Shown: piece by piece, positions 6,346 through 33,513 of the stretch
Layout of the letters: the number at the start of each line of letters is the position of its first letter
How positions within the stretch are numbered: the first letter of the stretch is position 1
DNA from: Deltaproteobacteria bacterium
Lineage (GTDB): Bacteria > Myxococcota_A > Bradymonadia > REDH01
Assembly (NCBI GenBank): GCA_013205435.1
Contig: JABMMX010000331.1
Coordinates: 1-33,513, forward strand
DNA length: 33,513 bases
Direction of reading: 5' to 3'
Notes under the pieces: model-generated
The model's input: only the letters and a program-made list of their open reading frames with translations
Database searches by the model: none
Told to the model about the DNA's origin: nothing
Program-made: the position numbers and the translations under genes

Positions 6346-7344
6346 ATGTCCTCGCAATCTGTCCAACTCGTTGTCGTTGTGACCCCTCGTCCGGGAGATG
6401 AGGCTGTTGTGCTGCCCGCGCGGCTGAGCGAGATCACCGGCCGCAGCAGGACGCAGCTCGCCATCGAGCTACAGCGCGGTGAGGTGGAGGTGCTCCGCAG
6501 CGACGATCGGGGCGAAGTCTCTCGCATTGTCGAACAGCTTGCGGCCTTTGGCCTGCTCGCGGTCGTACGCGAAGCCGCGGCGCCTGACCCGCGCAGCGCA
6601 ACGCCGGCTACCGGAGAGGGGTGGGGCAGGGTGCTCGGGGCCTTCGATGCCAAGGTTGCGGTCGCGCCTTCGCGCCTGCCCGACCGGCTCGCGGCGGGTC
6701 GCCTGCCCGAGGCCGATGGCTGGCAGCCGGCTGAGCCGCCACCGTTGCGGTTGAGTGACGCAGCAGCCTCCCCATCGGCGCACCGCGAGGGCGTCGTAGA
6801 CGGCCGAGGACGGCGGGCGCCGAACGCAGGCGCTGCCTCGGCCACCGATGTCGCGCTCGATCTCATGAGCGAGGCAGCAGGGTTGAACGGTCCTCCCGTC
6901 GGAGGTGTGCGGCGTGGTGCGAAAGGAGCGAACGCGGCGCCGAGGCGGCCGTCGGCGCGGGCCGTCGTGATAGCCCTGACCCTGCTGTTCGTCGCAGGCC
7001 TAGGATTCGCCGTCTACCAACGGATGCATCGTGCTCTCCCGCCGGTTGTCGCTCCGCCGGCCGGCCGCGCAACGGGTCTCGCACCCGTCGAGCCCTCGGT
7101 CGCTCCAGCCTCCGCTGCGCCTCAGCCTCCGACCGAGGAACAGGTCCGAATGCTCGTCGACCGCGCAGGCGAAGCTTGCCGCAGCGCAGACTTTGAGCGC
7201 TGCAAAGAGCTCGCCGATCAGGCGCTTGATCTCGACGAGACCAACCGCGCGGCGCAGGCGGTTCACATCAGGGCTGTCACCGCGATCAGCGCGCAGGCCG
7301 GTCGACCAGCGCAGAACCCGACTCCCCCATCAGGGCCGCCATGA
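6346..7344 (+). CDS. Hypothetical protein with one central TM helix and a short TPR-like C-terminal segment
   Basis: ORF; TM 'ARAVVIALTLLFVAGLGFAVYQ'; 'AGEACRSADFERCKELADQALDLDETNRAAQAVHIRAV'. Confidence 0.7.
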   Translation: MSSQSVQLVVVVTPRPGDEAVVLPARLSEITGRSRTQLAIELQRGEVEVLRSDDRGEVSRIVEQLAAFGLLAVVREAAAPDPRSATPATGEGWGRVLGAFDAKVAVAPSRLPDRLAAGRLPEADGWQPAEPPPLRLSDAAASPSAHREGVVDGRGRRAPNAGAASATDVALDLMSEAAGLNGPPVGGVRRGAKGANAAPRRPSARAVVIALTLLFVAGLGFAVYQRMHRALPPVVAPPAGRATGLAPVEPSVAPASAAPQPPTEEQVRMLVDRAGEACRSADFERCKELADQALDLDETNRAAQAVHIRAVTAISAQAGRPAQNPTPPSGPP

Positions 7345-8507
7345 TTGTCTCGCCTCGTGCAGCCATCTCGCTCCTCCTCCTCTGCGTCGCCGCGCTGATG
7401 CCCGACCGTGGCAACGCCGAAGCGGAGCCCGTCCGAGGATGGGTAGAAGCTGGCTCCGAGCCGCTCGTTGCGACCGACCTCGCGCCATGGGATGGCGATG
7501 GCACCTCCTTCGAGTCTTACGACTTCTGGGTCTGGCTCGACGACGGCCGATACATGAAGCTGCAGTTCGTCGTTACCTCGATGCGAGCCGGCTTCTTCAA
7601 GATTACTCGCCAAGGTAGCCTGAAGGTGGTGGTCGCCCCCATCGGTCAGACCACCACCGACGACACCATAGACGGGGTGTTTCGCGCCGGCCGCGGCTTC
7701 TCAGGGCAGGATGGCGAGTGGAGCTCCAGTGACGACGCTTTCAACCTCGTCTTTGACGACTGCTATCTGCGCGGTGATGGCCAAACCTTCCATCTCGCGC
7801 TCCTCGCCGGCCGCGTGAAGACCGAACTCGACCTCACGCTGAACCGGCCGCTCTGGCAGGCTGGAGACGGCGTGACCCGCTTTGGCTGGGATGGCGACAC
7901 GACCCTAACCGAGCACATCCTCCCTCGCCTTTCGGTCACCGGGCGCCTCAGTACACGGCAGAGCAAGAAGGACCCCGAGCAGTGGCAGGCCGTCACCGGG
8001 CTGGGGTATGCACAGCATCGCCGTACTTCATCCTTCCCCTCCTCGATCGGCGAGCGTTGGACCGGCTTTCGTGCCCTCCGAGATGATGGCCTGACCATCA
8101 CGATGAACCACCTCCTGACCCCCGACACCTATGGCCACGCCACCGTGGGCTGGCTCACCGTCAGCCTCGGAGATGAACTCCTCTTTGCATCGCGTGACCT
8201 TGTGCTGAAGCCCGTCGATGTTCGCAACCAGGCCATAGATGCATCGAACTACCCGGTCCTCTTCGGCTATCGTGTGCAGGCGCGGAGCGGTACCGACGAG
8301 GTTGAACTGACGGTCAACGACGGACAGATCGAACTCCGCGAGAACCCGCTAGCCTCGGTTAGTCCTGTGCTCCGCGCCGTGCTCGCGAGCGCGCTGGCTC
8401 CGATGGATTACGAACTCTCCAACCGGTACGAGGGCACCATCCGCATCGGTGGTGCTGTCGCGGCGGTGGCTGGCACGGGTTGGACAACGCTCAGCTACCC
8501 AAAGTAG
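7341..8507 (+). CDS. Secreted hypothetical protein, possibly lipocalin-like (AttH/CrtC/Svf1-type fold suspected)
   Basis: Signal-like N-terminus; beta- and Trp/Gly-rich sequence 'WVWLDDGRYMKLQFVVTSMRAGFFKIT'; ATGA overlap with the upstream gene. Family assignment is impressionistic. Confidence 0.6.
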   Translation: MIVSPRAAISLLLLCVAALMPDRGNAEAEPVRGWVEAGSEPLVATDLAPWDGDGTSFESYDFWVWLDDGRYMKLQFVVTSMRAGFFKITRQGSLKVVVAPIGQTTTDDTIDGVFRAGRGFSGQDGEWSSSDDAFNLVFDDCYLRGDGQTFHLALLAGRVKTELDLTLNRPLWQAGDGVTRFGWDGDTTLTEHILPRLSVTGRLSTRQSKKDPEQWQAVTGLGYAQHRRTSSFPSSIGERWTGFRALRDDGLTITMNHLLTPDTYGHATVGWLTVSLGDELLFASRDLVLKPVDVRNQAIDASNYPVLFGYRVQARSGTDEVELTVNDGQIELRENPLASVSPVLRAVLASALAPMDYELSNRYEGTIRIGGAVAAVAGTGWTTLSYPK

Positions 8508-8511
8508 CAGG

Positions 8512-9801
8512 CTATCCGTCGACGCTGCCCGCCCCGATCGCGCGGAAGATTGCATGCACCAGACCCTCTTCCCAGGGGTTGATGGCCCCTCCGAGTGCGC
8601 TGATGGCGCCCGCGCCGATCAGCAGGCCTAGGAGGACAGGGCGCCGAAGTACCGGCCCCTCTTTGTCAAGCACGCGGGCCGCTGCCAGAAACATCATCGG
8701 CTGCAGCAGGATGAACCAGCGAAAACCTACACAACGGCCCCCGTAGTTGTTGGTCCGGTACAGGTAGAAGCCCACCATCGCGACGACAATGAACCAGCCT
8801 GCATACCAAGCAGCGCGCTCCCTAGCTTCGGTGGGGCGGGCCGTGAACCATCCTGCCGATAGCAGCAGCCAAGGCGTCAGACTGAACAGCCCGTGATGCC
8901 CGAACAGGGAGTGGAAAGCATAGACGGGCAGGGGCTCATTGAGCGCGTCGAATTCAACGGGGTTCTTCCAGTAGGAGCCGGGATACTTCCATGCCGGATC
9001 CTGAAACTGGATCGGCACCGGAGAACCAGACTGGTTCCAGTGAATCGCCACCTGCACCAGCGGCAGAGAGGCCAAGAGGAGGCTCAGCCCGGCGAGTCGC
9101 CCCCACGCACGATCTCGGTAGAGCGCCGGCAGAAGCATGGCTGCAGATGCGGCAACTACCGCGCCGCTCGTAAGCTCGCAGGCAATCGCGAAACTGCCCG
9201 CGAGCGCTCCAAGCGCAAGCCGCGAGCCCGACAGCGCCTCGCCGCGGAAGGCAGGAAACCAGCGCTCCCACATCGCGAATATCAGCATGAAGCCGACCAC
9301 ATGGTTGTTGAAGGTCGCGCCGTAGGCGGTCGCCAAAGAACTGAGCGTGATGGCCACCATCGAGACGGTTCGGACCTGCCACGAACCCACCGTCAGCCGT
9401 AGCAGGCGGTGGAAAAGGAGCACCCCGAGCAGCCAGGGGAGCGTGCCGAGCAAGACTCCGAACAGCGAACCGAGCTGAAAGAGGTGGCTGTCGAAGGTCC
9501 AGCCGGTCAGCGGCTTGATGGCCGCGTAGAGCACCGCGCCGAGCAGATTCAGGACCGGCGGCTTGCTGCTGTAGAAGTGGTCGTCGAGGAAGACCTTGTC
9601 GATGGTCATCGAGCCGAGCGACACCCCGTCGATGGCCCAGGTGTGTTGCTCCACCAGCGCCTGAATGGCTGCCAATCGGCTCGCCGGATTCACGGGCATG
9701 TGAGGCTGGATCGCGCAAAAGAGCAGCCAGAGCGTCACAGCGGTGAGCGTGAGGCGGGAGATGAGGCGTTCGGTCGGGTGCAGCGGCATCAGGTTAGGCA
9801 T
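8512..9801 (-). CDS. Polytopic membrane protein, GT-C/GT39-like glycosyltransferase candidate
   Basis: Many TM segments; N-terminal lumenal-loop-like 'NPASRLAAIQALVEQHTWAIDGVSLGSMTIDKVFLDDHFYSSKPPVLNLLGAVLYA' typical of PMT/ArnT-like membrane proteins. Confidence 0.65.
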   Translation of the reverse strand: MPNLMPLHPTERLISRLTLTAVTLWLLFCAIQPHMPVNPASRLAAIQALVEQHTWAIDGVSLGSMTIDKVFLDDHFYSSKPPVLNLLGAVLYAAIKPLTGWTFDSHLFQLGSLFGVLLGTLPWLLGVLLFHRLLRLTVGSWQVRTVSMVAITLSSLATAYGATFNNHVVGFMLIFAMWERWFPAFRGEALSGSRLALGALAGSFAIACELTSGAVVAASAAMLLPALYRDRAWGRLAGLSLLLASLPLVQVAIHWNQSGSPVPIQFQDPAWKYPGSYWKNPVEFDALNEPLPVYAFHSLFGHHGLFSLTPWLLLSAGWFTARPTEARERAAWYAGWFIVVAMVGFYLYRTNNYGGRCVGFRWFILLQPMMFLAAARVLDKEGPVLRRPVLLGLLIGAGAISALGGAINPWEEGLVHAIFRAIGAGSVDG

Positions 9802-9854
9802 GATGACCGCGCGACTACGGTGCATCTGCCCCGCGTGCAAGCCAAAGGTGGTGC

Positions 9855-10793
9855 TTACGCGAGAGCGGCGCGCGGCAGAGGTTGTGATTCGCACCAGAGA
9901 AAGAAGGCGCGGAAACTCTGGGGTAGGGCCACCCCTTCGACCTCCATCCTCGCGCCGCCGCCGCCGACGGCGAGTTGGTTGCGCGAAGGGAGGTGGCGGC
10001 GAAGCTCCCGCACCTGCTCCAGCACCAGTGGGCGCGACGTCGTCACCGAGACGCTGATGAAGACCGATGCATCGGCCTGACGAGCGGCCTTCGCAATCTC
10101 GATCACGGGGGTATCGAGCCCGAGGTAGGCAATCTTACAGCCCGCGGCGGCAGCGGTCACGGCAGCCATGTGGAGGCCCACCGCGTGTGGCTCCATGGGC
10201 ATGGTCGCACCAACCAGCACGGGGCCCGTCGAGGCATCAGAGAGCGGACGCCAAATCGTCCCCAGAAAGTCGATGATTCGGTCCGAGGCAAAGTGCTCGT
10301 GCGGGATGCTGAGTTCATCACGCAGCCATGCCTCGCCGATTGCGACGATGAAGGGGTGAATGCGCCGCTCCAGAAAGTCGAAGAGACCGAGCTTGCGCCA
10401 TTCCACGGCGAAGCCATGCGACAGGGTCGCCGAGTCGAAGAGGGTCGCTGCGCGGAGCCAGCGCGAGACCACCGCATCGGTCTCTGCGTCAGACTCGATG
10501 CAGGGTGGCGCGTCGCAAACCACCGTAGGCAGCGGCCTTATCCCGTCCTGAGTCTCTGCCGCATCCCTGCCTGCGACGAACCGCTCGAAGGCCTGCGCCG
10601 GACGGAGACCTGAGTCGATGGAACGTTTCGCCTGCAGCAGTAGCTCGACGGTCGCAGGTTGGTAGAGACGCTGTCCGCCGGGTGTGCGCGTGGCGACGGG
10701 GAAGCCATACCGGCGCTCCCAGGTCCGGAGCGTCTCGACTGGGACGTCGCAGGCCTTTGAGACTGCGCCGATGCTGAGGAGGGGCGTGCGCAC
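9855..10793 (-). CDS. MerR-family regulator with C-terminal B12-binding domain, CarH/LitR-like
   Basis: MerR HTH 'LSIGAVSKACDVPVETLRTWERRYGFPVATRTPGGQRLYQ'; 'GEAWLRDELSIPHEHFAS' fits W-x9-EH; 'MEPHAVGLHMAAV' fits E-x-H-x-x-G; 'AVGGGGA'; GTG start. Confidence 0.87.
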   Translation of the reverse strand: MRTPLLSIGAVSKACDVPVETLRTWERRYGFPVATRTPGGQRLYQPATVELLLQAKRSIDSGLRPAQAFERFVAGRDAAETQDGIRPLPTVVCDAPPCIESDAETDAVVSRWLRAATLFDSATLSHGFAVEWRKLGLFDFLERRIHPFIVAIGEAWLRDELSIPHEHFASDRIIDFLGTIWRPLSDASTGPVLVGATMPMEPHAVGLHMAAVTAAAAGCKIAYLGLDTPVIEIAKAARQADASVFISVSVTTSRPLVLEQVRELRRHLPSRNQLAVGGGGARMEVEGVALPQSFRAFFLWCESQPLPRAALA

Positions 10794-10801
10794 GAGCCGC
10801 C

Positions 10802-11359
10802 TCAGGCTACCGCGAGCATGCGAGCCTTGAGGCCCTGACGGACGCGGTGCAGGCGGGCCTTGAGTGCTGGAATCGTCATCGAAAGCTCAGCGGCCACCTC
10901 TTCCTTGCAGCGACCGTCGAGATCCATCGCCACGTAGAGGCTGCGGTTGGTCTCCTCGATCTCCATCAGACCGGCCGCGTAGGCCTCGATGCAACGCTTT
11001 TCGCGGAGCTGGTCATCGGGGCGGTCCGACCTGTTCTCCATCGCCGCCGGCGCCATCATCGCGCTGAGCGTGTCGCTCTCGACGAGAATCGGGCGGCGCT
11101 TGAAGGTCCGCAGCTTCATCCTCGCGCAGTTCTCAGCCACGCGGTAGATCCAGCTCCAGAGCGCGCATTGCTCGTGGAAGAGGTCAATCTTGTTCACCAC
11201 AGTGAACAGGGCATCGTTGTTCGCCTCTTCGGCGTCCCACTCGTCCCGGAGGATGCGCACAGTCACAGCAAAGACGCGGTCCCGGTAGCCATCATAGAGG
11301 GCGCGAGCGGCGTTCGGGTCACGGCGGCGGAGGGCTTGGAGGAGTTCAATGTCTGTCAT
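10802..11359 (-). CDS. ECF-type RNA polymerase sigma factor
   Basis: Region 2 'LYDGYRDRVFAVTVRILRDEWDAEEANNDALFTVV', 'LWSWIYRVAENCARMKLR'; region 4 'CKEEVAAELSMTIPALKARLHRVRQGLKARM'; 8 bp upstream of the CarH-like gene. Confidence 0.88.
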   Translation of the reverse strand: MTDIELLQALRRRDPNAARALYDGYRDRVFAVTVRILRDEWDAEEANNDALFTVVNKIDLFHEQCALWSWIYRVAENCARMKLRTFKRRPILVESDTLSAMMAPAAMENRSDRPDDQLREKRCIEAYAAGLMEIEETNRSLYVAMDLDGRCKEEVAAELSMTIPALKARLHRVRQGLKARMLAVA

Positions 11360-11388
11360 GGCAACACCCGAGGTGGGAAGTGGTGGAC

Positions 11389-11442
11389 AGGTTATGAACA
11401 GTTTTTACCTCCAAGTCAACACTTCGAATAGGTACTGAATAG
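11389..11442. repeat. Pair of imperfect 13-bp direct repeats: AGGTTATGAACAG (11389-11401) and AGGTACTGAATAG (11430-11442)
   Basis: 10/13 identity, start-to-start spacing 41 bp, flanking the candidate promoter. Confidence 0.6.
11391..11419 (-). promoter_or_regulatory. Candidate sigma70-type promoter for the ECF sigma / CarH-like cluster: TTGACT-N17-CATAAC
   Basis: Minus strand -35 TTGACT (complement of 11414-11419), -10 CATAAC (complement of 11391-11396), spacer 17 nt, upstream of ATG at 11359. Confidence 0.45.
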
Positions 11443-11548
11443 CATTTTCTCCGCGCCCGCTCACGCCGCTAGGTCAAGTTGAACAACGGGTTAGCCTCTG
11501 TTACGCCGCTGAACTCCCGTCGGCGTCCCCTCGCGAAAGATCTTTCCC

Positions 11549-12520
11549 ATGAAACTGTCGCTGCTCATTCCCGTGTTCAACGAGGAGGAGAACCTCTGGC
11601 TGCTGCACGGGCAGATAGATGCCATGGCCAGGCAGTTCGATCTCGAGGTCGAGGTCGTGCTCGTCGATGACGGCTCTACCGATCGCTCCTTTGAGGTTCT
11701 TACCGCCATCGCAGCGGCCGACCCGCGCTGCCGTGTTGTCCGATTCAGGAAGAACTTTGGCCAGACCGCGGCGCTCGCTGCCGGCATCGCGCATGCGACC
11801 GGTGACATCTACATCCCGCTCGACGCCGACCTGCAGAACGACCCGGCAGACATACCCCGCCTCATCGCCAAACTCGAGGAGGGCTACGATGTGGTCAGCG
11901 GCTGGCGCAAGTCCAGGCAAGACCTGTTTTGGAGCCGGCGACTCCCCTCGGTCCTCGCCAACCGGCTCATCTCCGCCTGGACCGGCGTGAAACTCCACGA
12001 CTACGGTTGCAGCCTCAAAGCCTATCGCGCAGAGGTCATCCGCGACATCCGACTCTATGGCGAGATGCACAGGTTTGTCCCCATCTACGCATCGTGGGCC
12101 GGAGGCCGTGTCGCCGAGATTGTGGTCAACCACCGCGCGCGGCAGTTCGGCGTCTCCAAGTATGGCATCAACCGAACCTTCAAGGTCCTCCTCGACCTGC
12201 TGACCGTAAAGTTCCTGAGCAACTACGCAACCAAACCCATCTACCTCTTCGGAGGCATCGGGCTGATTCTCGCCGGCTTGGGATCCGCCATTGCACTCGG
12301 CGTAGTTGTCGGCCGATTCATCTGGAACGCTCCGCCCTTCCAGCACAACATGTCGCTCCTGCTCCTCTCCACCTTCCTCGTCACCATCGGCCTGATGCTG
12401 GTGATGATGGGGCTGCTCGCGGAGATCATCATTCGCACCTATCATGAGGCGCAGGGCAAGCAGATCTACCTCGTCCGTTCGGTGCTGAACCCTGCACCGG
12501 CCGCCGGCGCGAAGGAGTAG
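11549..12520 (+). CDS. Family 2 glycosyltransferase, membrane-anchored polyprenol-phosphate sugar transferase type (ArnC/GtrB-like)
   Basis: 'LSLLIPVFNEEENLWLL', 'VVLVDDGSTDRSFEVL', 'IPLDADLQNDPADIPRLIAKL', two C-terminal TM helices. Confidence 0.9.
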   Translation: MKLSLLIPVFNEEENLWLLHGQIDAMARQFDLEVEVVLVDDGSTDRSFEVLTAIAAADPRCRVVRFRKNFGQTAALAAGIAHATGDIYIPLDADLQNDPADIPRLIAKLEEGYDVVSGWRKSRQDLFWSRRLPSVLANRLISAWTGVKLHDYGCSLKAYRAEVIRDIRLYGEMHRFVPIYASWAGGRVAEIVVNHRARQFGVSKYGINRTFKVLLDLLTVKFLSNYATKPIYLFGGIGLILAGLGSAIALGVVVGRFIWNAPPFQHNMSLLLLSTFLVTIGLMLVMMGLLAEIIIRTYHEAQGKQIYLVRSVLNPAPAAGAKE

Positions 12521-12522
12521 CT

Positions 12523-14451
12523 GTGTGCGGCATCGCCGGCGGCTTCTTCGTCGCTCCCTCCGCCGACGACGAGGCGGTGCTCCGCCGCATGACGGACTCG
12601 CTGGCCCACCGAGGGCCGGACGGTGAAGGGCTGCTGCTCGAAGAGGGATTTGCCTTCGGCCACCGCAGGCTTGCCATTGTAGACCTCACAGGCGGAGCGC
12701 AGCCCATGAGGGCAGCGACACACAGGACAACGGTCTGTTTCAACGGTGAAATCTACAACCACATGGCGCTGCGGGCAGAGCTGGAACAGAAGGGCTATCT
12801 GTTCGAGACCTCCTCCGACACAGAGGTGCTTGTGCATGGCGCTCATGCTTGGGGGGCGGGCCTGCCGGCCAAGCTCAATGGCATGTTCGCCTACGCTGTT
12901 TGGGACCCTGCTCACCGTCGCGGACGGATTGCTCGCGATCGCTTCGGCGAGAAGCCGCTCTACTACATGCATCTACCCGATGGGTCGCTCTGGTTCGGCA
13001 GCGAGCTGCGCGCACTGATGGCCCATCCGAGCTGCACGCGGCGTATCTCGCAGGCGGCGCTCGAACTCTACCTGACCTACGAGTATGTGCCGTGGCCGCA
13101 CGCCGCCGTGGAGGGGGTGAGGAAGCTGGAGCCAGGCACAGCGCTGGTCTGGGAGGCCGGTCGGGTAACCATCGAACCCTTCTGCGAAAACGACTTCTGC
13201 CAGCCGGAGCAGGTTGATCTGACTGATGATGAATGGATCCGGCAGACCAAGCAGGCGCTGCTCGCCTCGGTGCAGGCGAGGACCATGGCCGATGTGCCGA
13301 TTGGGGTATTCCTTTCGGGTGGCGTGGACTCCTCCGCCATCGCCGCGCTCCTAAGCGCCGACATGCCCCGCGGCGCGCTCCAGACCTTCTCCGTTGCCTT
13401 TGACGATCCCTCGTTTGACGAGTCGCAATATGCATCGGCGGTCGCGGCGGCACTCGGTACAACCCACCATGTGCGGCGGTTCGGTGCCTCGGATCTCCTT
13501 GACCTCGTTCCGGCCATGATGGGCCACATGGACGAGCCATTCGGCGATGCAAGCCTGCTCCCCACCCACCTGCTGTCGAAGTTCACCCGTGAGCACGTCA
13601 AGGTTGCACTCGGCGGCGATGGCGGCGACGAACTTTTTCTGGGCTACGAGACCTTCCGCGCCGATGAAGTTGCGGCTCCCTATGCCAGGCTCCCGAAGCC
13701 GCTCCAACGACTCACCGAGCGGCTGGTGCGCGCGATGCCGGTCAGCACGGGGAACTTCAGCCTCGACTTTGTCGCCAAGTCCTTCTTGCGCGGAGCAGGG
13801 TCGCCGGGCGTCGAGCGCCACGTGCGCTGGCTCAGCTCCTTCCTGCCGGACGCCGGCCCGCAGCCGCTCGCGCGCGACCGACGCCGGCTTCTGAGCGCAG
13901 ACGAGGTCTTTGCCGTCATGGGGGTCCACTACGACGCACCCCAGGGTCGAGACCACCGCCAACGGCTCTCAAACGCCTACATCCGGACCTATCTCGCCGA
14001 AGACATCCTGACCAAGGTAGACCGGGCGAGCATGGCTGCGGGCCTCGAAGCGCGCTCCGCATTCCTCGACCCGGAACTCCTGAAACTGGTTGCCCGCATG
14101 CCTTCGCACCTCAAGATGGGCCGAGGCTTGAAGGCAAAGTGGGTGCTGAAGCAGGCGGTCGGTTCCATGCTGCCGCCAGTCGTGACGGCGCGGAAGAAAA
14201 AAGGCTTCGGGATGCCGGTCGCCGCCTGGCTCAAAGGGCCGCTACGAGAGCAGATGCACGACCTGCTCAGCCGCGATCGGCTCACTGCTGCCGGCGTGTT
14301 CGACCCAACCGTGGTCGAGCGTCTGATGGCCGAACACGAGGCAGGAACCTCTGACAACCGCAAACAGCTCTGGACCCTCATGATGTTTGAGGCTTGGCGG
14401 CAGCGGTGGGGTGTGACAGTCTCCGCGCCCGACACGGAGGCAATGGTATGA
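12523..14451 (+). CDS. asnB: Glutamine-hydrolysing asparagine synthase family amidotransferase
   Basis: GTG start giving MCGIAGGF (catalytic Cys); 'HRGPDGEGLLLEEGFAFGHRRLAIVDLTGGAQPM', 'CFNGEIYNH', 'FLSGGVDSSAIAALL', 'ALGGDGGDELFLGYETF'. Confidence 0.93.
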   Translation: MCGIAGGFFVAPSADDEAVLRRMTDSLAHRGPDGEGLLLEEGFAFGHRRLAIVDLTGGAQPMRAATHRTTVCFNGEIYNHMALRAELEQKGYLFETSSDTEVLVHGAHAWGAGLPAKLNGMFAYAVWDPAHRRGRIARDRFGEKPLYYMHLPDGSLWFGSELRALMAHPSCTRRISQAALELYLTYEYVPWPHAAVEGVRKLEPGTALVWEAGRVTIEPFCENDFCQPEQVDLTDDEWIRQTKQALLASVQARTMADVPIGVFLSGGVDSSAIAALLSADMPRGALQTFSVAFDDPSFDESQYASAVAAALGTTHHVRRFGASDLLDLVPAMMGHMDEPFGDASLLPTHLLSKFTREHVKVALGGDGGDELFLGYETFRADEVAAPYARLPKPLQRLTERLVRAMPVSTGNFSLDFVAKSFLRGAGSPGVERHVRWLSSFLPDAGPQPLARDRRRLLSADEVFAVMGVHYDAPQGRDHRQRLSNAYIRTYLAEDILTKVDRASMAAGLEARSAFLDPELLKLVARMPSHLKMGRGLKAKWVLKQAVGSMLPPVVTARKKKGFGMPVAAWLKGPLREQMHDLLSRDRLTAAGVFDPTVVERLMAEHEAGTSDNRKQLWTLMMFEAWRQRWGVTVSAPDTEAMV

Positions 14452-15155
14452 ATCCCAAGACGCTCATCATCATCCCAACCTACAACGAACGCGAGAACAT
14501 CGAGCGCATCCTGACGGCGGTTCACGCGGCTGTACCCGATGTTGAGATCCTCGTCGTCGATGACGGTTCGCCCGACGGAACCGGTGATCTTGTCGAGGCC
14601 CGAGGCAAGGCCGACCCCCGCATCCACCTCCTCCGCCGCTCCGGGAAACTAGGACTTGGCTCCGCCTACCTCGCAGGCTTCGCCTTCGCCCTCGAGCGGG
14701 ACTACCAGCGCATCTTCGAGATGGACGCCGACTTCAGCCACGACCCGAAGTATCTTCAGCCGATGCTCGATGCGTCGGAGAGCGCCGACATGGTGATAGG
14801 CTCTCGCTACGTCGAAGGCGGAGGTACCGTCGACTGGGGACTCTCGCGCCGTCTCATCTCACGCGGAGGCGGCCTCTATGCGCGGACCATCCTGGGACTC
14901 GATATCCAGGACCTCACAGCCGGCTTCGTCTGTTACCGACGTGAGACGCTGGAGAAGATCGCGCTCGGCGAGGTCTTCTCCACGGGCTACTGCTTTCAGA
15001 TTGAGCTGAAGTATCGGGTTCACCGGGCCGGCCTCCGGCTCGTCGAGATCCCCATCGTCTTCCCCGACCGCGTTGCGGGCGTGTCGAAGATGTCGGCAGA
15101 GATCGCCCGAGAGGCACTCGTGCAGGTGCTGCGCCTCAAGTGGAAGCTGGGCTAG
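14448..15155 (+). CDS. Polyprenol monophosphomannose (DPM1-like) synthase, soluble GT2 type
   Basis: 'LIIIPTYNERENIERIL', 'ILVVDDGSPDGTGDLV', 'GLGSAYLAGFAFAL', 'IFEMDADFSHDPKYLQPML', 'VIGSRYVEGGGTVDWGLSRRLISRGGGLYART', 'DLTAGFVCYRRETLEKI'; ATGA overlap with asnB. Confidence 0.93.
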   Translation: MNPKTLIIIPTYNERENIERILTAVHAAVPDVEILVVDDGSPDGTGDLVEARGKADPRIHLLRRSGKLGLGSAYLAGFAFALERDYQRIFEMDADFSHDPKYLQPMLDASESADMVIGSRYVEGGGTVDWGLSRRLISRGGGLYARTILGLDIQDLTAGFVCYRRETLEKIALGEVFSTGYCFQIELKYRVHRAGLRLVEIPIVFPDRVAGVSKMSAEIAREALVQVLRLKWKLG

Positions 15156-16969
15156 TTCCCCTTCTCGCCGCTCTTGCCCGTGAGTGCGCGCATGAATCCC
15201 ACCAGATCGGGATCGTTCGGTGACTGCCGGAGTGCCATCGCCAGGAATCCGGCTGCGGCTTTGGGGTCGCCGGTGCGCTGCAAAAATCGGGCATAACCGA
15301 CGCTCCACCAGATGAGGTTTCTCGAGCTCTGGAGTTCGAACGAGGAGCCCTCCGAGAATCGCCTCTTCCATGCGTCGAGCGCAACGATGGCTGCACCCTG
15401 CCGCTCCGCTGCGGTAGGCGCTACCGACTGCCAGACGAGGCCACCCTCACCAGCAAGCAGGTGTTGGCGCTCTTCGCTGGAGACCAGCTCATCTGGCTCC
15501 ATGCGGACGGCGGAGCGGTCGGCCCAGGCAGAGAGCGCAGGCGTCGATAGCGAGGCGTTTGACGGGTCGGCCTGAAGCAGTGGGGCGAGTCGGGGCTCTG
15601 CTGCCACAATCATCGCGTCGTAGTGCGGGTAGGTGCGGAAGGAGCGGTGGAGGTGGACGAGGTCCGGGCGCTGGTCCTCTGGCCCCTGCGCATACCAGGT
15701 CTGAAATGCGGTCTCGAAGTAGGCAGAGACCCAGAGGGTGTCGGGGGGTGCGCTACGCAGAAACGCATCGCGGAACAGCCCACTTTCGCGGTAGCCCGAG
15801 AGGTCGCGGGTTCGCCCGTCCTCAGCCTCTGCGATGCCCCAAAACAGCGCGGTGAGTGGCAGCAGGCCATAGGCGGTCAGCCGGACGATGTTCGACTGCT
15901 TGGCCCCCTCTGCAAGCCGCTGAAGGAGCCAGCCTGCGCCGAGTCCCAGCGCGGCCACCGACACCATGAAGTAACCGAGCACATCGGGGTTCCACGGGTC
16001 GAAGTCGAAGATGAACTGCGTTGCCAAGTTGAAGACCACCACGACGCTCAGCGGCAGTCCGAGACGCGGCTTTGTGATCGCGAGTCCGACAAGTCCGGTT
16101 GCACCGAGGAGCAACCCGAGCGGGCCAACCTGCTCCATGAAGAGCAGCGACACCTTGGTGAGTCCTGTCGCGACATCCACGGTCACCACCTTCGCCGCCG
16201 TCTTCTGGAAGGCCTGCGCGGAGACCACCCAGTAGAGGTTCTGAAAACTTTCGGGCCAAGCCCAGCTCCCGTGCGGGCGTGCGGCGCCACGGGCGACCAG
16301 CGCGGCGTAGCCGCCTACAAGCGACAGTCCGATGCCAAGTGAGGCCGCCACTCCGACAAGCAGGGGCCGTGTGCCAAACCGTGCGAGCAGCAGCCAGACG
16401 AGCACCGCAGGAAAGAGGAAGAAGGTGAGGTAGTGGTGGTTCAGCAGCCCCACGCCGAGCACCAGTGCGCAGAGTGTGAGCGCCCGCAGCCCAAGCCGTT
16501 CGACCGAGACCATGAGCCAGAGCGTCGCGACAGCCACAAGGAAGTGCAGGCTATAGACCTCACCGCGGATGGACTGGAGCACGAGCGCGGTTGACGCCCC
16601 TACCAGGAGCGTGAGGCTGCCCACCGTCAGCAGTGCAAACCGGGTTGCGACCGAAGCAAGGCGATCGGCAATCAGGGGGAGCAGCGATACTCCCAGAGCG
16701 GTGCAGGTCGCAGCAAAGAGGTGGATTCGCCACGGGTAGGGGCCAAGTGGAACCAAGCCTGCGAGATAGGAGAGCAGGTGAAAGGCCGGGTGACCGGGCG
16801 GGTGGCTGATGCCGAGCGACCAGGTCGCGTTGACCAGCTCGGAGCTGTCGAGCAGGTAGGTGGTCGGGGCGGCACGCCAAAGATAGAAGAGCCAGGCCGC
16901 GACGCCGCAGCCTGCAGCGAGCAGGCGCAATCGGTTCCGATCCGGCGGGAGCCGTTCAGCCATCGTCAT
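15152..16969 (-). CDS. DUF2723 / TMEM260-like polytopic membrane protein (GT-C-like)
   Basis: 'FYLWRAAPTTYLLDSSELVNATWSLGISHPPGHPAFHLLSYLAGLVPLGPYPWRIHLFAATCTALGVSLLPL' is characteristic of DUF2723; multiple TM segments. Confidence 0.88.
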   Translation of the reverse strand: MTMAERLPPDRNRLRLLAAGCGVAAWLFYLWRAAPTTYLLDSSELVNATWSLGISHPPGHPAFHLLSYLAGLVPLGPYPWRIHLFAATCTALGVSLLPLIADRLASVATRFALLTVGSLTLLVGASTALVLQSIRGEVYSLHFLVAVATLWLMVSVERLGLRALTLCALVLGVGLLNHHYLTFFLFPAVLVWLLLARFGTRPLLVGVAASLGIGLSLVGGYAALVARGAARPHGSWAWPESFQNLYWVVSAQAFQKTAAKVVTVDVATGLTKVSLLFMEQVGPLGLLLGATGLVGLAITKPRLGLPLSVVVVFNLATQFIFDFDPWNPDVLGYFMVSVAALGLGAGWLLQRLAEGAKQSNIVRLTAYGLLPLTALFWGIAEAEDGRTRDLSGYRESGLFRDAFLRSAPPDTLWVSAYFETAFQTWYAQGPEDQRPDLVHLHRSFRTYPHYDAMIVAAEPRLAPLLQADPSNASLSTPALSAWADRSAVRMEPDELVSSEERQHLLAGEGGLVWQSVAPTAAERQGAAIVALDAWKRRFSEGSSFELQSSRNLIWWSVGYARFLQRTGDPKAAAGFLAMALRQSPNDPDLVGFMRALTGKSGEKGN

Positions 16970-33118: not shown

Positions 33119-33513
33119 CAACTGGCGAGTTTGATCCTGGCTCAGAACGAACGTTGGCGGCGTGCCTAACACATGCAAGTCGAGCGGGGGAGCAATCCCT
33201 AGCGGCGGACGGGTGCGTAACACGTGAGTAACCTGCCCTGAGGCTTGGGATAACGTTTCGAAAGGGACGCTAATACCGGATAGTTCTGTTGTGGGATGCC
33301 ATGACAGAGGAAAGGAGTAATCCACCTAAGGAGGGGCTCGCGGCCCATTAGCTAGTTGGGGCGGTAATGGCGCACCAAGGCGAAGATGGGTAGCCGGTCT
33401 GAGAGGATGATCGGCCACACTGGAACTGAGACACGGTCCAGACTCCTCCGGGAGGCAGCAGTGAGGAATATTGGTCAATGGGAGCAATCCTGAACCAGCA
33501 ATGCCGCGTGTGG
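33119..33513 (+). rRNA. rrs: 16S ribosomal RNA, 5' partial (continues past window end)
   Basis: 'gagtttgatcctggctcag' at 33127, 'acacatgcaagtcgagcg', 'actgagacacggtccagactcctccgggaggcagcagtgaggaatattggtcaatggg'. Confidence 0.98.

Follow-up and report, generated by a model that had tools for sequence, protein, structure and literature searches.

A probable B12-dependent light switch with an ECF sigma factor as its output, encoded beside glycan genes in Myxococcota

What does a predicted photoreceptor control when the genes around it point to the cell envelope? The question is raised by a stretch of 33,513 nucleotides (the window), which is one whole 33.5-kb contig (G000:C311) of a Myxococcota assembly (3.67 Mb, 404 contigs, 81% complete) whose close relatives are metagenome assemblies that, judging from record titles, appear to come from lakes. 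An initial annotation had described an ECF sigma factor gene 8 bp upstream of a CarH-like gene on the minus strand, a 53-bp gap between the latter and the ATG of a membrane-protein gene on the same strand, and GT2, asnB-type and DPM-type genes running divergently from the ECF gene. The ORFs, strands and spacings are as described (Table 1), and no anti-sigma gene adjoins the pair within the window. Pfam and NCBIfam searches returned Sigma70_r2 and the ECF superfamily model, MerR_1 and B12-binding, Glycos_transf_2 and asparagine synthase for the corresponding proteins. Our analysis indicates that the pair probably forms a B12-dependent CarH/LitR-type light switch that acts directly on its own operon and has the ECF sigma factor as its output.

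Table 1. Features of the ECF–carH locus and members of the DxDxDGxPG family (window positions unless a locus is named)
Feature	Position	Strand	Remarks
GT-C-like polytopic membrane protein gene	8512..9801	-	ATG at 9801; possible read-through gene
CarH/LitR-like MerR + B12-binding regulator gene	9855..10793	-	Wx9EH and ExHxxG...SxT...GG motifs intact
ECF sigma factor gene	10802..11359	-	Putatively LitS-like in role; member of the 22-genome orthogroup
CarH-type tandem half-sites CTGTTCA-N4-CTGTCCA	11384..11401	-	11-bp repeat overlapping the -10
Sigma-A-like promoter of the ECF–carH operon	11391..11419	-	TTGACT 11414-11419, N17, CATAAC 11391-11396; conserved in the genus
CarH-type tandem half-sites CTATTCA-N4-CTATTCG	11425..11442	-	11-bp repeat just upstream of the -35
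Conserved non-coding block	11475..11507	+	Possible separate GT2 promoter, TTGAAC 11479-11484, N17
GT2 (ArnC/GtrB-like) gene	11549..12520	+	First in the divergent operon; neighbour of the switch
asnB-type gene	12523-14451		Divergent from ECF–carH
DPM-type gene	14394-15155		Divergent from ECF–carH
DxDxDGxPG-family member	L038:10130-10882
DxDxDGxPG-family member	L040:8626-9459
DxDxDGxPG-family member	L048:2261-3190
DxDxDGxPG-family member	L052:7942-8733
DxDxDGxPG-family member	L057:6464-7417
DxDxDGxPG-family member	L063:7223-7984
DxDxDGxPG-family member	L129:4870-5790

The CarH-like protein starts with a MerR DNA-binding domain (PF13411/PF00376 matches), in which alignment reveals the RxWERRY motif as RTWERRY. 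The B12 motif D/ExHx2G/P-x41-SxT/V-x22-27-GG is recognizable as E201-P-H203-A-V-G206, S247-V-T249 and G277-G278, with a first spacer of 40 instead of 41 residues, and the Wx9EH adenosyl contact, which is crucial for CarH photoreceptor activity, is present as W156...E166-H167 (motif definitions from PMC9304148). The structure model (pLDDT 88.7) has Thermus thermophilus CarH (5c8d/5c8e, E 3.9e-17) as its top Foldseek matches, and these features predict that the protein should bind B12. We designate it CarH-like since it scores 110.6 bits against the 400-bit cut-off of the NCBIfam CarH equivalog NF052513. A PduO-type Cob_adeno_trans gene is found in the source genome and in two of its three genus mates (G000-G002); this adenosyltransferase makes AdoCbl. 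The CarH proteins of the window genus sit on a long branch of the tree (1.36 changes/column) and, given this branch, could have changed.

Intact B12 motifs would also suit a sensor of B12 availability or redox state, rather than light, with the ECF sigma factor driving a B12-related or general stress regulon. Light responsiveness in the clade is itself a prediction from sequence, and one homologue (G044) has no match to Wx9EH, which would also agree with this alternative. We consider it very unlikely, given that Wx9EH is kept in 29/30 homologues (ExHxxG/T in 30/30) and that many ECF loci lie near photolyase or carotenoid genes. The RNA-family search of the window also counts against this alternative: it returned no B12 riboswitch, whose involvement was accordingly rejected, its sole match being a 16S rRNA gene that starts at 33119-33513 (+) and is cut by the contig end.

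The ECF protein matches the superfamily model TIGR02937 (47.6 versus a cut-off of 42.9) and PF04542 (30.4 versus 24), with region 4 below its own Pfam cut-off. A profile search of 143 related genomes delineated an orthogroup of 22 genomes, whose members score at least 218 bits and whose next paralogue scores 161 bits. Coordinate comparison showed that in 20 of these 22 genomes (families f1, f5, f7 and f12) the ECF gene immediately precedes a CarH-like gene and shares its strand, which rules out chance neighbours: the ECF–carH pair is real and old. Both orthologues without an adjacent carH have distinct surroundings, as the G054 gene lies within a crt cluster, ~0.9 kb from crtB, and the G056 gene adjoins a two-component system where no CarH was found. 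CarH-like proteins were matched in 82 of the 143 genomes, with a closer subfamily (~36-45% identity, E < about 1e-44) in families f1, f2, f5, f7, f12, f19 and f27; the CarH tree is poorly resolved and would fit either a single or a repeated origin of the ECF pairing. Several CarH-like genes of family f5 that lack an ECF partner (L053, L057, L058, L060 and L066) neighbour genes for GST-like proteins, some together with a fatty-acid desaturase, and these constitute an alternative partner set for CarH.

Upstream of the ECF gene, the putative sigma-A-like promoter is associated with two tandem repeats of CarH-type half-sites (Table 1). CTGTTCA, read on the other strand as TGAACAG, agrees with the TnnACA half-site reported for CarH operators, which are 11-bp direct repeats overlapping a promoter (PMC9304148). 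The four genus genomes retain TTGAC[AT]-N17-CA followed by a variable A/T-rich stretch, and our promoter call rests on this conservation because a generic sigma-70 scanner called no promoter in 9700-11600. The layout recurs beyond the genus: (i) 46 half-sites occur upstream of the ECF gene in 17 representative regions, compared with a mean of 3.1 and a maximum of 10 in 300 shuffles, and (ii) a TTGA-N17-CA promoter with a half-site over its -10 is found at 12/22 ECF loci (shuffle mean 0.04, maximum 1). At five loci (G048, G078, G120, G056 and G070), the number of half-sites is one or none and does not exceed chance expectation. When the four genus genomes were scanned in full with a strict pattern, the tandem arrangement was detected at the ECF promoter only, a stringency that leaves room for weaker sites elsewhere. 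This enrichment across families, along with the restriction of the pattern to the ECF promoter in the genus, is our strongest new evidence and makes it most likely that the CarH-like protein represses its own ECF–carH operon.

A palindrome, TTGTTCA-CCACAG-TGAACAGGG, lies within the ECF coding region (11188-11211) and resembles two facing CarH half-sites; it was reported as a terminator-like site and may be due to chance.

Some operator copies in the window are degenerate (CTATTCA and CTGTCCA), and the ECF proteins of the genus depart from residues that are conserved in the others (QD to ND/TD/HD and W to F). Together with the long CarH branch, these traits could mean that the pair is decaying in this genus or that the genes around it are there by chance, with ECF and CarH persisting without a role in light sensing. 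Such a reading is highly improbable, as both ORFs are intact and share 91-97% (ECF) and 77-93% (CarH-like) identity across the four genus genomes, in all of which the core of the promoter and half-sites is invariant.

We favor a model in which, in the dark, the CarH-like protein loaded with adenosylcobalamin would sit on the tandem 11-bp TGAACAG repeats over the ECF–carH -35/-10 and block sigma-A transcription, a binding mode suggested by the operator layout. Light would cleave the Co-C bond and release CarH from DNA, as anticipated from CarH biochemistry and the intact binding residues, and ECF and CarH would then be made together. The sigma factor, having no adjacent anti-sigma, would be controlled by its abundance and would transcribe photoprotection genes, for instance those for making carotenoids and possibly for repairing DNA; in the window genus, these genes lie elsewhere in the genome. 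In this genus, the GT-C-like gene 53 bp downstream may additionally receive read-through.

The initial annotation regarded the locus as the window's best candidate for an undescribed regulatory system, yet its logic is known from LitR-LitS of Streptomyces coelicolor, in which an AdoCbl-binding MerR photoreceptor controls its own gene and an ECF sigma factor gene, and the sigma factor drives carotenoid transcription (PMC5401885, PMC12705666). Control of the ECF gene by the photoreceptor may operate in the same manner here, as the operator sequence on the ECF promoter suggests. The two systems differ in phylum, in the single ECF–carH operon seen here and in the position of the crt operon, which is not adjacent to the pair in the window genus; the likeness of the sigma factor to LitS proposed here is one of role. 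No LitR/LitS-like pair on a plasmid was recognized among the matches listed, which comprised proteobacterial MerR/B12 proteins, Thermus CarH and unrelated ECFs.

CarH proteins of Myxococcus, Sorangium and Haliangium share the architecture, the motifs and the 11-bp TnnACA direct repeats overlapping a promoter, but they directly repress crt promoters, that of M. xanthus being sigma-A dependent (PMC9304148), whereas the operator described here is at the ECF–carH operon and none was found at the crt genes examined. In the CarQ-CarR-CarS system of Myxococcus xanthus, an ECF sigma factor, CarQ, likewise acts in light-induced carotenogenesis (PMC9304148); unlike the system proposed here, CarQ is held by the anti-sigma factor CarR and answers singlet oxygen and not B12 photolysis, and no CarR-like gene adjoins the pair in the window. 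In LitR-LdrP of Thermus thermophilus, as outlined in PMC5401885, the photoreceptor likewise derepresses a second-tier transcription activator, which turns on crt and photolyase genes and belongs to the CRP family instead of being a sigma factor. The literature searched, of incomplete coverage, yielded no description of an ECF–carH operon in Myxococcota. The operon and its own CarH-type operator indicate that a two-tier cascade of the LitR-LitS kind is at work in part of this phylum. Such a cascade could bring many genes under light control, and the operon itself is compact and testable, with a clear operator code.

As to the genes that the sigma factor may control, the reported absence of carotenoid genes holds for the 33.5-kb window but not for the genome, as crtB, crtI, crtE, a cyclase-type gene, crtC and a photolyase gene are found elsewhere in it. 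Among the relatives, 9/22 ECF loci have crt, photolyase or photolyase-related (DPRP) genes within ~10 kb (G027, G036, G038, G047, G048, G054, G070, G078 and G093), some of these labels relying on clustering with one Pfam-scanned member; the neighbours include crtI/crtB/crtE/crtC, photolyase, a photolyase-related protein and an SDR with DUF1731. G004, a near-complete sister genome, has neither a CarH-like gene nor the ECF orthologue nor crtB. Two genomes, G105 and G055 (the latter only 65% complete), possess the pair without a crtB match, so there must be some output besides carotenoids. Where crt loci were sampled in pair-bearing genomes, CarH half-sites did not cluster, in keeping with a sigma factor acting between CarH and crt, and no CarH repeats were present in the aligned crt, cyclase and photolyase upstream regions of the genus. 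In 12 genomes that carry the ECF gene, a search upstream of crt for a common two-block ECF motif (-35/-10) gave nothing convincing above shuffled sequence, so a sigma regulon of photoprotection genes is a proposal.

Across many Myxococcota, distant families included, a family of secreted or lipoprotein-like proteins with a conserved DxDxDGxPG motif is encoded beside genes for CarH, photolyase or carotenoid synthesis (crt) (Table 1). The two members scanned have no Pfam match, and homologues in the window genus are present but unlinked; the family is a candidate conserved light-response protein. Beside the GT-C gene, the window encodes a protein conserved in the genus (7341-8507, +) with a CrtC/Svf1 lipocalin-type match (E 0.0015) below the Pfam cut-off, and a clearer CrtC-type gene is located elsewhere in the source genome.

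The glycan genes invite a different reading, in which the switch mainly controls surface glycans, with CarH or the ECF sigma factor acting directly at the GT2 promoter and the GT-C gene belonging to the same operon. The GT-C gene adjoins carH in 4/4 genus members (92-94% identity), and no terminator-like site was found on the minus strand in 9700-11600; given this and the 53-bp gap, co-transcription with ECF–carH by read-through is plausible. Moreover, the promoter-like block upstream of GT2 is the most conserved non-coding part of the divergent region and is overlapped by one TGAACA half-site. The tandem operators nevertheless lie at the ECF promoter, with about 37 bp or more separating them from the putative -35 of GT2. 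GT-C, GT2 and asnB are not found beside the pair in the sister genus or in other families, and the genome does contain carotenoid genes at other places. We thus regard primary control of glycans as unlikely.

Conserved ECF–CarH–GT-C synteny, which had been set beforehand as a check, is confined to the genus: in neither the sister genus (G005) nor any other family does GT-C adjoin the pair, and distant GT-C homologues (G054, G055, G056, G079 and G097) are on contigs other than that of the pair or in genomes without it. The immediate divergent neighbours of the G005 pair are DPM-type glycosyltransferase and adenosine-deaminase-type genes, with no GT2 and no asnB. The two genera thus have different glycan genes around the pair, and linkage to GT-C is peculiar to the window genus. 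The label GT-C-like is itself weakly supported, as the protein has no Pfam match and the poor quality of its structure model (pLDDT 54) makes the best fold matches (ALG12/ALG3/OST/PMT, E about 0.01 or worse) merely suggestive.

The proposed B12/light switch acting on glycans through the sigma factor thus survives in its first half, as the intact photoreceptor motifs, the CarH-type operator on the ECF–carH promoter and the conserved pair argue for a switch operating through sigma. The second half, coupling to genes for envelope glycans in place of carotenoids, is not supported, in view of synteny that stops at the genus and of the carotenoid and photolyase genes in the genome and near the ECF loci of relatives; judged by its neighbours alone, the pair would have been assigned the wrong output. 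A narrower version is conceivable though doubtful: in this genus, genes for envelope glycosylation would have come under the light/B12 switch, GT-C through read-through from the ECF–carH operon and the divergent GT2-asnB-DPM operon perhaps as well, and surface glycans would then change with light. A further gene of this neighbourhood, absent at the corresponding place in G005, encodes a TMEM260-like protein O-mannosyltransferase family member (15152-16969, -) and lies between the DPM-type glycosyltransferase and adenosine-deaminase-type genes of the window.
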